Positions 25,228 to 48,096 of a stretch of 58,334 nt of DNA are shown here, in pieces. Position 1 is the first letter of the stretch. Each line of letters opens with the position of its first letter. The notes under the pieces are model-generated. The model saw only the letters and a list, made by a program, of their open reading frames with translations. It searched no databases and had not been told where the DNA came from. Both the position numbers and the translations under genes were made by a program. The stretch is from a bacterium (GTDB lineage: Bacteria; Campylobacterota; Campylobacteria; Campylobacterales; Sulfurimonadaceae): positions 1 through 58,334 of the forward strand of contig JAHJGM010000008.1 of assembly GCA_018824305.1 (NCBI GenBank). The letters run 5' to 3'.

Positions 25228-26226
25228 ATGAGTCAAATAAGCTATAAAGATGCCGGTGTTGATATTGATGCCGGAAACAGTTTTGTTGAAAATATAAAAC
25301 CGTTAGTAAAATCTACTAAGATACCGGGTGTTATAGGTGGAATCGGTTCATTTGCAGGCGCATTTGAGCTTCCAAAGGGTTACAAAGAACCTGTAATGCT
25401 TGCGGCTACTGACGGTGTCGGGACAAAACTAAAGCTTGCTATTGATTCAGGGATCCATAACACGGTAGGGATCGACCTTGTTGCGATGTGTGTAAATGAC
25501 CTGCTTTGTAACTTCGGTACTCCGTCGTTCTTTTTGGATTACTATGCAACGGGCAAACTTGAAGTCGAAGTCGCTACTGCTGTTGTGAGTGGAATTGCTG
25601 CTGGATGTATCGAAGCTGAGTGTGCGCTTATCGGCGGCGAGACTGCCGAGATGCCGGGAATGTACAGCAAAGATGATTATGATCTTGCAGGTTTTGCAGT
25701 GGGTGTCGCAGAAAAATCCGAGATGGACCGTGTGAGTATGGTGCAAGCGGGTGACCAGCTTATAGCACTTCCAAGTTCAGGTCTTCACTCAAACGGTTTT
25801 TCACTTGCTCGTAAAGTCCTTTTTGAGAAAATGAAACTTGATTTTAACGCTGACTTTAACGGTAAACCGCTTATCGAGACTCTTTTGACTCCTACTAACA
25901 TCTATGTCAAAACATTTAAAGCGTTAAAAGAGAAGATAGTAGCATTGGCTCACATCACAGGCGGAGGGATCGTCGAGAATCTTCCTCGTGTCTTACCTGA
26001 GAACCTTATGGCTGAGGTAAAAGAGAGCAGTATCAAGACTCTTCCGATCTTTGATCTTATCGGCGAGCATGTCGCGCGTGAAGAGATGTTCAGAGCGTTT
26101 AATATGGGAGTAGGGATGATACTGGTAGTTCGCCCTGAGAATGTCGATGCTGTTTTAGCAGGAGCTGAGGGAAGTTACCATATCGGCGAAATCAAAACAG
26201 GTGCAAGAAAAGCTGTACTTATTTGA
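25228..26226 (+). CDS. purM: Phosphoribosylformylglycinamidine cyclo-ligase (AIR synthetase)
   Basis: It closes the imidazole ring in purine synthesis, using ATP. The 332 residues contain the PurM signatures: [15 protein letters not shown], the [12 protein letters not shown] nucleotide motif, [31 protein letters not shown] and the C-terminal [13 protein letters not shown]. Length is typical. It is a stand-alone gene ending with TGA. Confidence 0.97.
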
Positions 26227-26310
26227 TCTAAAACGCGATTTGAGCAAAGCCCAGATCGCTACTATGGCGCTGAAGCCAGCCTCTTTGAGGCAGATTTACA
26301 AAGACTCTGC

Positions 26311-27582
26311 CTATATCTCACTTCCCCATCTCAAAGACCCCAGTCCATATTTTTCTCTTACTTTATGTGCCTGTTTTGTCAACTCTTTTTGTCTGTTGTC
26401 ATCATCTAGCTCCAAGAGCGAGAGCTCGCGTCTGCAGATATGGGTGAACTCCGAAGATGTTATGGACAGATGGGTTATATGTAAACGTTTTTGATTGTCG
26501 GCTTCGTTAAACATCGAGAGACAAAAATCTTTAAACTCTTTTTCGCTGAACTCTTTTCTTTTGGTTACGCTTATATGTGTCTTTTGATTGAACTCATACT
26601 TTATGGAGAGTGAAAATGTCGTCGGTATGACCTGCAGTTTTTGTATGGCAAAGATAAGATGACGGGAGAGAATGATGACTCTGCGGCGAAGTTCGGTTCT
26701 CTCATGTACGGGATCGAATGTTCTTGAAATGCCGATCGATTTTCTAGTCGTCTTTGAGTTTATGGGTGCATCGATCTCGCCGTTGACCTTTTTATAAAGC
26801 TCTTTTGCGTAGGGTCCCCATGACTCTATCGTTCCTCGTCTTTTTCTTAGCTCTCCGAGTGTGAGTATCTGTGCATCGGTGAGTTTTTGCATCATGGATT
26901 TGCCGATACCTGAAAACTTGCCTACATGTAAAGGATTTACAAAGGCATCAAAATCCCATCTGTATATGGTTTTGCATCCAAAGGGTTTGGCTTCGCCCGT
27001 GGCGAGCTTTGCTATGTATCTTGTATGTGCTGCGCCTATGGATACGGGAAGGTTTAAAACTTTTTTAATGTCGTGACGAAGAGAGTCTATGAATCGGGGC
27101 ACATCCTCATCATTCACCCATCCCGTGATGTCACCGTAAAATTCATCAATACTGGCTTGTTCCACCAAGGGGATTCTCTCTTGCAAAAAAAGATGCAGTT
27201 TGTGTGAAAGTTCCTGATAAAGAGACATATTAGGTGCTTTGATGATAAGGTGCGGGCAAAGCCCGAGTGCTTCGCTGATACTCATGGCGGTTTTTATGCC
27301 GTATTTTCTTGCTTCATAACTTGCAGTCGTCAGAATTCCGCGTATTCGGCCATCTTGATCCGTGAAATTTTTTAAATCGTCATCTCTTTGGTCATACTCC
27401 TGATAAAAGGTCGAAACGAATGAACCGGAGTTGGTCAGATTTACTTTTTGTTCCCGATTTTTATGTGAAAAAATCTGTGTGTCGCTTCTTCCGCCGACAG
27501 CAACGGGTTTATGCAAAAGTGAGCTGTCTATAGTGCGCTGGGCAGAGACAAAAAAACAATCTAAATCTATGTGTATCTTCAT
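26311..27582 (-). CDS. Y-family DNA polymerase (DinB/Pol IV type)
   Basis: The 423-residue protein begins MKIHIDLDCFFVSAQRT, with the first catalytic Asp pair, then HKPVAVGGRS and the steric-gate neighbourhood. The second catalytic site is QASIDEFYGDITGW. Thumb and little-finger regions follow (KLATGEAKPFGCKTIY, GKFSGIGKSMMQKL). It should perform error-prone translesion synthesis. The start at MKIHID (27582) fits the family, while an upstream ATG at 27630 would add a non-conserved extension. An insertion after GGRSDTQIF of about 40 residues, compared with short Pol IV proteins, suggests a Campylobacterota subtype. Confidence 0.88.
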   Translation of the reverse strand: MKIHIDLDCFFVSAQRTIDSSLLHKPVAVGGRSDTQIFSHKNREQKVNLTNSGSFVSTFYQEYDQRDDDLKNFTDQDGRIRGILTTASYEARKYGIKTAMSISEALGLCPHLIIKAPNMSLYQELSHKLHLFLQERIPLVEQASIDEFYGDITGWVNDEDVPRFIDSLRHDIKKVLNLPVSIGAAHTRYIAKLATGEAKPFGCKTIYRWDFDAFVNPLHVGKFSGIGKSMMQKLTDAQILTLGELRKRRGTIESWGPYAKELYKKVNGEIDAPINSKTTRKSIGISRTFDPVHERTELRRRVIILSRHLIFAIQKLQVIPTTFSLSIKYEFNQKTHISVTKRKEFSEKEFKDFCLSMFNEADNQKRLHITHLSITSSEFTHICRRELSLLELDDDNRQKELTKQAHKVREKYGLGSLRWGSEI

Positions 27583-31550: not shown

Positions 31551-31577
31551 ATCTAAAAGAGAGTGACTCTTTTAGAT
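31551..31577. terminator. Bidirectional terminator between the EAL gene and nifU
   Basis: ATCTAAAAGAG (31551-31561) pairs perfectly with CTCTTTTAGAT (31567-31577) around AGTGA. Both genes converge here, and it overlaps the stop codon of nifU. The A/T-rich arms provide T residues for both strands. Confidence 0.6.
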
Positions 31578-32546
31578 AGGAAGAACACGGATCTTGCTTG
31601 AGAGTTTCTCTTTTAGGGTGCTCTCAATCGCGTAAAGTGTTCCCGTCGTAGAACTCGCACAGCCGTTACATGCACCGATATATCTGATATAGACATCGAT
31701 GTTGTCACCACTGTCTTTGATATCGATAACTTCCATATTCCCGCCATCCATGATCAAGAACTGGCGTACGTTCTCATCTATGACACTGTCTATCGCTTTG
31801 ATCTTTTGAACAAGAGTCATAGTCGCAAAATCACCGGTGATACCAGCTTCAGCAGCAGCTCTCATCTTCTCTTCATCCATCTCACGACGAGTATCTTTTA
31901 AGATATCGACAAGATAATATTCACGCTCTTCATGTCCGCCTGGTTTGATACAGCTTTTACAAAAACCGCCTGCTTTCGTATAGTCCGTGATCTGTTCTAT
32001 TGTTTTAAGATCGTTTAGTTTGATGACCTCTTTTAAAGTTTTAAGAGATACACGTGCACATTCACACACGATGATCTCCTCTTCAAAAGTCTCGGCATCG
32101 ACACCTAAGTAGAGTCCTGCTGCTTTTTTGATAACATCGTAAGCCATGACTGAACAGTGCATCTTTTGAGGCGGAACTGCCGGAACGTCGGGTGAGTCGC
32201 GAAGTGCGAACTCAACATCGATGTTTGTGATCTTGACAGCTTCTTGTACTGTTTTGCCTAGACACAGTTCGGTCATAACGTCACTGCTTGCGATTGCCGT
32301 TCCGCAGCCAAAGCTTTTAAACTTGGAGTTTACGATGATGTCCGTTTTTGGGTCTACTTCCCAGTAAAGACGTACGGCATCTCCACAGCTTTCCGCTCCA
32401 AAGTCTGCGACGATAAGCTTGTTACCGTGCTCAGATGCTTCCTCTTCCGTGATCTCACCTTGGTGTTTTGGGTTATTCATAAGGGTTGTGACTTTATTGG
32501 AGTAAGCATCCCATAAAGATTCGCCCATCAAATCATTTTTTGCCAT
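31572..32546 (-). CDS. nifU: NifU Fe-S cluster scaffold, three-domain form
   Basis: The 324 residues contain all three NifU domains. The IscU-like scaffold has Cys in AESCGDAV, FGCGTAI and MHCSVMA. The central [2Fe-2S] domain has CECARV and GGFCKSC. The C-terminal NifU domain has GACNGCASST. In Campylobacterota this is the housekeeping (NIF-type) cluster assembly scaffold, not only a nitrogenase protein. The ATG at 32546 is used because GGAAG precedes it by 10 bases. A longer frame to 32669 would read through the regulatory leader. NifS, its sulfur donor, lies upstream on the same strand. Confidence 0.96.
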   Translation of the reverse strand: MAKNDLMGESLWDAYSNKVTTLMNNPKHQGEITEEEASEHGNKLIVADFGAESCGDAVRLYWEVDPKTDIIVNSKFKSFGCGTAIASSDVMTELCLGKTVQEAVKITNIDVEFALRDSPDVPAVPPQKMHCSVMAYDVIKKAAGLYLGVDAETFEEEIIVCECARVSLKTLKEVIKLNDLKTIEQITDYTKAGGFCKSCIKPGGHEEREYYLVDILKDTRREMDEEKMRAAAEAGITGDFATMTLVQKIKAIDSVIDENVRQFLIMDGGNMEVIDIKDSGDNIDVYIRYIGACNGCASSTTGTLYAIESTLKEKLSSKIRVLPI

Positions 32547-32558
32547 AATATTTTTCTT

Positions 32559-32585
32559 CCTTAATTTTATTTCATAAAATGAAGG
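32559..32585 (-). promoter_or_regulatory. Hairpin that covers the nifU ribosome binding site
   Basis: On the minus strand CCTTCATTTTAT pairs with ATAAAATTAAGG around GAA, with one mismatch in 12 pairs. The second arm ends in AAGG, the core of the nifU ribosome binding site, which would be hidden when the hairpin forms. An almost identical hairpin stands before leuC (47821-47847). Confidence 0.55.
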
Positions 32586-32702
32586 GAAACCTTCACTTTT
32601 TAAAAACGCAAAAGTAGCAAAGCTACTTTTACTACAATAACTCTGCGTTCTCTTTGGCAGAGTGCCCACGCACTTTGGGTGCTTTTTTAAAACTCAATAT
32701 TT
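32586..32702 (-). other. nifS-nifU intergenic leader with further hairpins
   Basis: Between the nifS stop and the RBS hairpin is a structured region. AAAAGTAGC (32610-32618) pairs with GCTACTTTT (32622-32630) around AAA, with 9 base pairs. Further upstream in the transcript there are GC-rich inverted segments (GCACCC ... GGGC). The first hairpin may act as a terminator or attenuator between nifS and nifU, setting their ratio. Confidence 0.4.
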
Positions 32703-34001
<1,299 letters not shown>

Positions 34002-35105: not shown

Positions 35106-35181
35106 GCTCGCATAACTCAGTTGGTAGAGTGTTACCTCGACAAGGTAAAAGTCACTGGTTCGAGTCCAGTTGTGAGCACCA
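35106..35181 (+). tRNA. tRNA-Val (anticodon GAC)
   Basis: The 76-nt cloverleaf is complete. The acceptor is GCTCGCA with TGTGAGC (one G-T pair), then discriminator A and an encoded CCA. The D arm is ACTC/GAGT. The anticodon stem is TTACC/GGTAA with loop TCGACAA, giving anticodon GAC. The T arm is ACTGG/CCAGT with loop TTCGAGT. It stands alone, with no integrase or att repeat nearby. Confidence 0.97.
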
Positions 35182-35446
35182 TTTAAACACCCTTATTTAT
35201 GTACTTTAAAGACTATTTGAAAAAAATTAAACTGTTTTAAAAAACCATTTTATACCACTTTCAAAATAACACTATTGCTTTATGACTGTAAACAAGGGAC
35301 ATACCACTCAAGGTTATTGTCTAAATTATTGGTGGCAGTATATTGTTATCAGCATAAAGTGTGGAAGATAAGATTATAAAAAGAGCAGTCAATATATAAG
35401 ATAAAGTTTTAATAGTGACTCCAAATGATTACGAGGAATCTTCAAT
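35182..35446. other. Intergenic stretch after tRNA-Val
   Basis: These 265 AT-rich bases lie between the tRNA and the DUF420 gene. I see no open frame with a ribosome binding site and no clear hairpin. The promoter of the downstream gene must lie near its 3' end. Confidence 0.4.
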
Positions 35447-46544: not shown

Positions 46545-47813
46545 TTAATCTATCTTATTTGGATCTGTAATATAGCCTGATATCGCCGATGCTGCAGCAA
46601 CTGCAGAGTTTGCTAAGTATACTTTTGAACTTCTGCTTCCCATACGGCCTACAAAGTTACGGTTTGTTGTAGAGACTGCCACTTCGTTGTCGCCAAGGAT
46701 TCCCATGTAACCGCCAAGACAAGCGCCACATGTAGGATTACTTACAACTCCGCCCGCATCTATCAAGATATCGATGTATCCGCGTTTTGTTGCTTCTCTT
46801 AAGATCTTTTGCGTGCCCGGAGTGATGATAAGACGAACATCTTGATGAACTCTTTTACCCTTTAATATCTCAGATGCTACTTTTAAATCGCTTAGTCTGC
46901 CGTTTGTACAGCTTCCGATGAAAGCTTGATCGATCTTGATATGATCTTCTACCGCTTTTGTCACACTGTGCCCATTCGAAGGCAGGAACGGATATGCGAT
47001 CACAGGTTCAAGTGCGGCAACGTCTATTTCTAAAACCTGAACATAGTTTGCGTCTTCGTCAGAGTAATATATTTTCGGTTCACGCGCCAAAGGTTTATCT
47101 GCCAAGAACTCTTTTGTCACATCGTCATACGCGACGATCCCGCTTTTTGCACCCGCTTCGATAGCCATGTTACACATAGAAAATCTGTCGTCCATCGTAA
47201 GATAAGGGATAGTACTTCCCGTAAACTCTAAAGTTCTGTATAAAGCACCGTCAACGCCGATCATTCGGATGATCTCCAAGATGATATCTTTTCCTGTCGT
47301 GTATTTGCCAGGTTTCCCGCTAAGAACGACTTTGATGGATTCGGGTACTTTAAACCAGTTGCCTCCCGTGACCATGGCAAATGCCAAGTCCGTAGAACCC
47401 ATCCCCGTTGAGAAAGCACCTAATGCACCGTGTGTACATGTGTGAGAATCTGCACCGATGATAACGTCACCCGGAACGACAAGACCTTTTTCAGGTAAAA
47501 GCGCGTGCTCGATCCCCATATCTTTTTCATCAAAAAAGTTTTTAAGATCGTATTTTTTTGCAAAATCACGGCTTATTCTTGCTTGGTTGGCACTTGCGAT
47601 ATCTTTTGCCGGGATAAAGTGGTCAAGTACGATAGAAAATCCGTCAGGATTTGCAAGTTTTGTTGCTCCCGCATCTTCAAAAGCTTTGATGGAGATAGGA
47701 GTGGTAATGTCATTTCCTATGACCATATCGATATGAGAGCGGATAATCTCACCTGCATATACAGGGTGTCCGACATGCCCTGAGAAAATCTTTTCAGTAA
47801 TGGTTTGTCCCAT
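46545..47813 (-). CDS. leuC: 3-Isopropylmalate dehydratase large subunit
   Basis: This [4Fe-4S] enzyme isomerises isopropylmalate in leucine synthesis. The 422 residues have the Cys ligands in IGSCTNGRL and TCGACLGGYMG, the sequence GADSHTCTHGALGAFSTGMG, and the aconitase signature. It is the shorter archaeal-type LeuC. leuD is not adjacent in the window. A long leader with a ribosome-site hairpin precedes it, closely like that of nifU. Confidence 0.95.
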   Translation of the reverse strand: MGQTITEKIFSGHVGHPVYAGEIIRSHIDMVIGNDITTPISIKAFEDAGATKLANPDGFSIVLDHFIPAKDIASANQARISRDFAKKYDLKNFFDEKDMGIEHALLPEKGLVVPGDVIIGADSHTCTHGALGAFSTGMGSTDLAFAMVTGGNWFKVPESIKVVLSGKPGKYTTGKDIILEIIRMIGVDGALYRTLEFTGSTIPYLTMDDRFSMCNMAIEAGAKSGIVAYDDVTKEFLADKPLAREPKIYYSDEDANYVQVLEIDVAALEPVIAYPFLPSNGHSVTKAVEDHIKIDQAFIGSCTNGRLSDLKVASEILKGKRVHQDVRLIITPGTQKILREATKRGYIDILIDAGGVVSNPTCGACLGGYMGILGDNEVAVSTTNRNFVGRMGSRSSKVYLANSAVAAASAISGYITDPNKID

Positions 47814-47820
47814 AATAATT

Positions 47821-47847
47821 CCTTAATTTTATTGCATAAAATGAAGG
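47821..47847 (-). promoter_or_regulatory. Hairpin that covers the leuC ribosome binding site
   Basis: On the minus strand CCTTCATTTTAT pairs with ATAAAATTAAGG around GCA, with one mismatch. The arms are identical to those of the nifU hairpin; only the loop differs. The second arm contains AAGG of the leuC ribosome binding site (AAGGAA). Flanking bases are also shared with nifU (AAAAAGTG before, TATTATGG at the start codon). Confidence 0.55.
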
Positions 47848-48096
47848 AAACCCACTTTTTATTTATTCGAGCAAGGAATAAAATCCCTTACTCTTCGCTC
47901 GAGCCGCTGTACTAAAGAAACATTTCACTTCGTAAAAGCGCTTCCCTTGTTTTGGCTACTAAAGCTTGATACTAAAAGTATCAGAAGAGGGTTTTCATTT
48001 TGTTGTGCGAATTATACCATTTAGAGTTGATGACATTTTGAAATATTTTTATAAAATCGTTTTTTTTGATGTTAATATTGGAAAAAAAGGATTATT
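47848..48096 (-). other. leuC leader / intergenic region with several hairpins
   Basis: Upstream of the ribosome-site hairpin the minus strand contains a stem GATACT/AGTATC with TTT loop. A longer structure is bounded by CGAGC and GCTCG with an inner AAGG/CCTT. I see no leader peptide with a run of leucine codons, so classical leu attenuation is not supported. The promoters for leuC and the divergent zinc-finger gene should be here. Confidence 0.4.

Follow-up and report, generated by a model that had tools for sequence, protein, structure and literature searches.

A dispersed structured repeat with a putatively bistable ribosome-binding-site tail upstream of nifU and leuC in a member of the Sulfurimonadaceae

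The window, i.e. the whole stretch of 58,334 nucleotides analysed here (GCA_018824305.1, contig JAHJGM010000008.1, positions 1 to 58,334), carries near-identical hairpins upstream of nifU and leuC, both on the minus strand. The nifU hairpin reads CCTTCATTTTAT-gaa-ATAAAATTAAGG (32585-32559) and the leuC hairpin CCTTCATTTTAT-gca-ATAAAATTAAGG (47847-47821), and each stem consists of 11 pairs and one C.U mismatch. As described in the initial annotation, the AAGG of the Shine-Dalgarno (SD) sequence is located in the stem at both genes, which also have the flanks AAAAAGTG and TATTATGG in common; the AAGG belongs to the 3' arm. The identity of NifU is backed by the Pfam domains NifU_N, Fer2_BFD and NifU, and Pfam likewise places LeuC in the aconitase family. 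The following features were located:

26226-26316, minus strand: additional core copy (L101) lacking a tail, between convergent genes
31572-32546, minus strand: nifU coding sequence, ATG at 32546-32544
32559-32585, minus strand: nifU sequester hairpin (5' arm 32574-32585, loop 32571-32573, 3' arm 32559-32570 with the AAGG of the SD), present in seven exact copies in the genome
32590-32599, minus strand: nifU anti-sequester 5' arm AAAGTGAAGG, pairing with CCTTCATTTT at 32576-32585
32599-32686, minus strand: nifU upstream core (P0 32670-32682, P1 32650-32662, P2 32639-32649, P3 32608-32632), based on an R2 model match of 84 bits and on covariation
32703-33947, minus strand: gene of a NifS-type cysteine desulfurase (Aminotran_5, Pfam), the upstream neighbour, with the element between it and nifU
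46545-47813, minus strand: leuC coding sequence, ATG at 47813-47811
47821-47847, minus strand: leuC sequester hairpin, AAGG at 47821-47824
47851-47860, minus strand: weak leuC anti-sequester arm AAAAAGTGGG, SD predicted to be closed
47860-47924, minus strand: leuC upstream core of class B (P3 47869-47893; R2 model match 28 bits, R1 match 91.5 bits)
48011-48016, minus strand: TATAAT, likely -10 of the leuC promoter, 5' of the element, as read from the sequence

Since the likely -10 of leuC is located upstream of the element, the leader would be transcribed. Elsewhere in the window (35143-35275, minus strand) a match to Rfam HPnc0260 scored 62.6 bits against a threshold of 59 bits; it is overlapped by a tRNA gene on the other strand and may be spurious.

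The initial annotation overlooked that the hairpin is not confined to nifU and leuC. Its exact 27-nt form occurs in seven copies in the 2.4-Mb Sulfurimonas-type genome to which the window belongs, preceding nifU, leuC, thiG, bcp, hemE, fabI and fabG, and since the reversed control pattern yielded 0 matches, chance can be excluded for the hairpin. In the same genome a degenerate variant precedes hisA and an expanded one dnaK. Allowing for up to three mismatches, 37 sense matches were detected in 14 of 60 related genomes. All 37 directly precede a start codon (one of the ORFs leaves its contig after three codons), and the genes behind them include nifU, leuC, thiG, hemE, fabG, hisA, groEL, dnaK, tpx, tkt, mtnN, ribH, dapB, rplS, ilvD and nusB. 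An exact scan of public genomes revealed 90 unique hairpins, nearly all in records of Sulfurimonas or Sulfurimonadaceae. For 88 of them an ORF start was called in place, while one of the other two is truncated where its contig stops and one has an ATG in place; the spacing between hairpin and start is mostly 7-10 nt. The upstream gene is encoded on the same strand as the element in 68 of the 83 public copies for which it was callable, which indicates that the element usually resides between the genes of an operon, as in nifS-nifU, groES-groEL and grpE-dnaK (groES and grpE named by eye from the flanking sequence). In the thiG, leuC, groEL and dnaK leaders the element is kept in the orthologues of several species. 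Across the 60 related and the public genomes the hairpin tail was seen on the sense strand only and directly before start codons, so that a randomly placed repeat was rejected as its explanation.

It had likewise been missed that the hairpin represents the 3' tail of a structured element of approximately 130 nt in the Sulfurimonas group, and that its CCUUCAUUUU arm can also take part in a competing helix formed with sequence further upstream. From 5' to 3' the core of this element comprises P0 (of the type GCACC-AAA-GGUGC), GYGGGCUU, P1 (with the loop GCCGA), P2 (AAC-YYAGY-GUU), CGUAG, P3 (of the type GGACUUUGUUC) and CGUAUUAA. In an alignment of 28 sequences 97.4% of the cells are paired, both sides have changed in 15 of 18 pairs, and 114 cells with a double change were observed compared to 33 in shuffles. 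Conserved loop sequences sit inside these covarying stems, and the many G.U pairs in P3 indicate that the folding strand is the one carrying the SD. P0 is formed in 108 of 111 copies; as a four-pair hairpin also arises in 59% of shuffles, it is the variety of its arms alone that stands out. An outer P1 helix (GGG/CCC) was weakly supported and omitted from the core model. Class B denotes a shorter core in which P1 is replaced by a short linker. According to the model the core adjoins the hairpin upstream in 72 of 92 public copies, and in the remaining copies a core of class B or in a rearranged form is mostly recognisable by eye. The spacing of core and tail is fixed, with a gap of 10-22 nt, mostly 13-15, between the end of the core model and the hairpin. 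Covariance models of Rfam 15 gave no match on the element, neither at gathering scores in the window nor at lenient scores at 8 loci, and its identity with a known Rfam family was thus rejected. At the loci L120, L155, L158, L189, L238 and L297 extra hairpin modules, some of them recurrent (e.g. CAAGGAAACATCGC...CCCTTG), were found within the P1 or P3 loops, as if small palindromes were nesting in the element.

The suggestion that the hairpins might belong to a dispersed intergenic repeat holds for the upstream core but not for the tail. The core model matches 21 times in the window's own genome (E up to 1) and 19-58 times in each of seven other genomes, and a sample of 298 genomes from the phylum included 53 with matches, which belong to four family groups. 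With about 20-58 copies the core is abundant in several genomes of the Campylobacterales. Relative to their flanking genes the copies are distributed over all orientations (++ 33, -- 28, +- 21, -+ 10), and they also occur antisense to genes and away from start codons. Tandem (period approximately 92-94) and head-to-head arrangements were observed as well. Copy numbers and scores are highest in the genus group g37 of the family group f20 (G055, G246 and G271, with 58 matches in G055), i.e. outside the family of the window, where the core may therefore be older or more active. Arrays of three tandem cores, repeating every 92-94 bases or so, are present in genome G031 (L140 and L141; C1:86811-87081 and 2234248-2234526), and genome G003 contains four identical head-to-head core pairs (L115/L142; C1:762787-762940 and three identical sites) directly before the apparent 5' end of the 23S rRNA. 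Tandem whole leaders or cores before a single gene were also noticed, at L074 (G027, C113:1332-1566, before nifU) and L220.

The junction between nifS and nifU varies among relatives. It holds the element with its tail in G000, G003 and G007, an apparently reversed element in G001 and G002, a core lacking the tail in G013, an empty spacer of 22 nt in the close relative G006, and in G038, a member of another family, a core with an unrelated SD hairpin behind it (CCUUAUUA/UAAUAAGG). Judging from these sequences the core was gained or lost at this junction between close relatives; the filled and empty pairs are too diverged for fixing the ends of the element. Cores without a tail precede other start codons as well, which indicates that the tail is unnecessary for the persistence of the core.

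The tail can form two mutually exclusive helices, as its segment CCUUCAUUUU pairs either with the upstream arm AUGAAGG (AUGAAGG/CCUUCAU), leaving the SD free, or with AUAAAAUUAAGG, which hides the AAGG of the SD. At least 9 of the 10 anti-sequester pairs are retained in 76% of 101 tails (counted without the MAFFT alignment of diverged tails, which misaligned stems of different length) compared to 1.7% after shuffling, and almost all changes in the anti-sequester arm opposite a U are from A to G. In the diverged tails of other genera the SD pairing is retained by paired changes, for instance from A-U to G-C in CCTTCATTTTGT/ACAAAATTAAGG, and it is also kept in the diverged nifU tails of G003, G027, G033 and G038. 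The initial proposal of a cis-acting RNA element not described before is supported in so far as such a structure is present at the ribosome binding site and shows compensatory changes in relatives. The AUG or GUG of the anti-sequester arm starts a short ORF that often terminates in the hairpin, e.g. at 32571-32596 on the minus strand of the window. A leader peptide was considered and rejected: AUGAAGG starts short ORFs in many tails and their frame is not conserved (38/37/16, and 10 without a start).

Based on folding predictions at 37 °C the median probability of an open SD is 0.163 with the anti-sequester arm intact and 0.003 when this arm is shuffled, an approximately 50-fold difference which suggests that the upstream arm undoes the masking by the hairpin. 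For ordinary AAGG starts of Sulfurimonas the predicted value is 0.132; a similarity of this kind would be expected if the second helix only neutralised the first. Despite the same hairpin, predicted openness is about 0.9 for nifU and about 0.001 for leuC, and the two remain open and closed, respectively, at every temperature tested. The median is 0.015 at 10 °C and increases gradually until it reaches 0.306 at 45 °C.

The genes downstream of the public copies form 50 clusters, corresponding to about 50 families without a common function, among them GroEL, DnaK, HisA, IlvC, transketolase, LuxS, NusA, NusB, FabI, L9, L12, L19, EF-P, ClpX, HemE and FlgD. The initial annotation had proposed a common switch of nifU and leuC responding to Fe-S cluster, iron or sulfur status, and besides these two genes IlvD, a NifS-like protein, a SufT-like protein and a ferredoxin can be linked to Fe-S clusters. 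These represent approximately six of the 50 families, and about 44 have no such link. Taking furthermore into account that nifU of the close relative G006 is devoid of the element, and that opposite predicted default states of nifU and leuC behind one hairpin argue against a single shared sensor, this switch was rejected and appears extremely improbable. An RNA thermometer, in which the AU-rich SD hairpin melts on warming, would fit the predicted rise in openness and the heat-shock genes dnaK and groEL among the targets. However, the predicted opening is gradual, nifU and leuC do not change their predicted state with temperature, heat-shock genes form a minority of the targets and thermometers do not typically possess an anti-sequester arm, so that this explanation is considered very unlikely. 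The conserved loops inside covarying stems, the classic order of anti-sequester and sequester and the fixed distance between core and tail would be in accordance with a riboswitch or protein-controlled leader, in which a generally important metabolite or protein is bound by the core and this binding is relayed to the tail. Such a role seems unlikely nevertheless, given that the targets share no pathway, that the core also occurs without a tail and antisense to genes, and that no relation to a family of Rfam 15 was detected.

The main rival is a selfish or inert dispersed repeat (REP-, MITE- or BOX-like) without any regulation, the SD-ending sense version of which is tolerated before start codons and retains its anti-sequester arm only to keep the site accessible. 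This scenario is quite possible: it would account for the core standing in both orientations, for its gain, loss and reversal at nifS-nifU, for targets without a functional theme and for a predicted SD openness equal to the background. It does not require, however, a start-codon tail of one orientation with both helices kept across genera by paired changes, nor the persistence of the element in the orthologous thiG, leuC, groEL and dnaK leaders of several species. We therefore favour, at roughly even chances, a REP- or BOX-like structured repeat whose start-codon version may act as a bistable translational leader. According to this interpretation the composite leader of about 130 nt would consist of a dispersed structured intergenic repeat in its 5' part, best accounted for as mobile or at least dispersed, and of the bistable tail in its 3' part. 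Where it immediately precedes a start codon, in most cases inside an operon and between two of its genes, the leader would provide the ribosome binding site, and translation of the downstream gene would presumably be set by the equilibrium between the two helices; folding of the core, or a factor bound to it, could possibly tune this equilibrium. The bistable-leader interpretation is itself weakened by the lack of a common function among the targets, by the predicted SD openness of tail genes, which resembles that of ordinary starts, and by the persistence of the core before start codons without the tail. A further-reaching version appears rather unlikely, namely that the core responds to a general cellular signal or is bound by a global regulator, and that at least 10 unrelated genes per genome constitute one post-transcriptional regulon in Campylobacterota, growing by the copying of leaders.

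The element apparently represents an uncatalogued family of structured RNAs or repeats which is common in an environmentally important group of sulfur oxidisers. Core genes including groEL, dnaK, nifU, hisA and fabI would thereby have a potential switch of translation at their start codons. Provided that this switch is functional, it illustrates how regulatory RNA can be spread among genes by a dispersed intergenic repeat; otherwise the element would clearly exemplify a repeat whose evolution has made its insertion at start codons tolerable. In either case an Rfam family could be founded on the covariance model, and annotation would benefit.

In the literature on riboswitches and intergenic repeats of Sulfurimonas and Sulfurospirillum, most subscription papers excepted, no prior description of the element was found. 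With the REP/REPIN sequences and their RAYT proteins it shares a dispersed, extragenic and palindromic nature, both orientations, inverted pairs and tandem copies, as well as a GTAG-type motif at the foot of the palindrome, here CGUAG directly 5' of P3 in most of the 28 aligned copies (with the variants CGCAG and CGAAG). However, no Y1 transposase (PF01797) was detected in the carriers G000, G003, G013 and G017, which include the window's own genome and possess about 20-30 cores each, so that there is no support for the classic REP/RAYT route; the strongly diverged copies with covarying stems and the sense-only start-codon tail differ from this system as well. Translational riboswitches resemble the element in that a covarying structured domain precedes an anti-sequester and a sequester helix which, as computed here, exclude each other at the SD, but its targets comprise about 50 unrelated families instead of a single pathway, and its upstream domain, which has no known ligand, also occurs antisense and away from start codons. 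The TAACTGA repeats of Beggiatoaceae are concentrated just 5' of the start codons of functionally mixed genes, and a role in translation has been proposed for them (PMC4679880). The element has this position and the mixed targets in common with them, whereas the TAACTGA repeats are direct repeats of a heptamer without an SD and without the structure of the element. The BOX elements of the pneumococcus are modular, structured intergenic repeats which are often co-transcribed. In enterobacteria, ERIC RNA affects the neighbouring mRNA within operons (PMC2229807). Like these repeats the element is modular, structured and intergenic; it is unrelated to both in sequence and structure, and differs from them in that its start-codon version bears an SD with two alternative helices.
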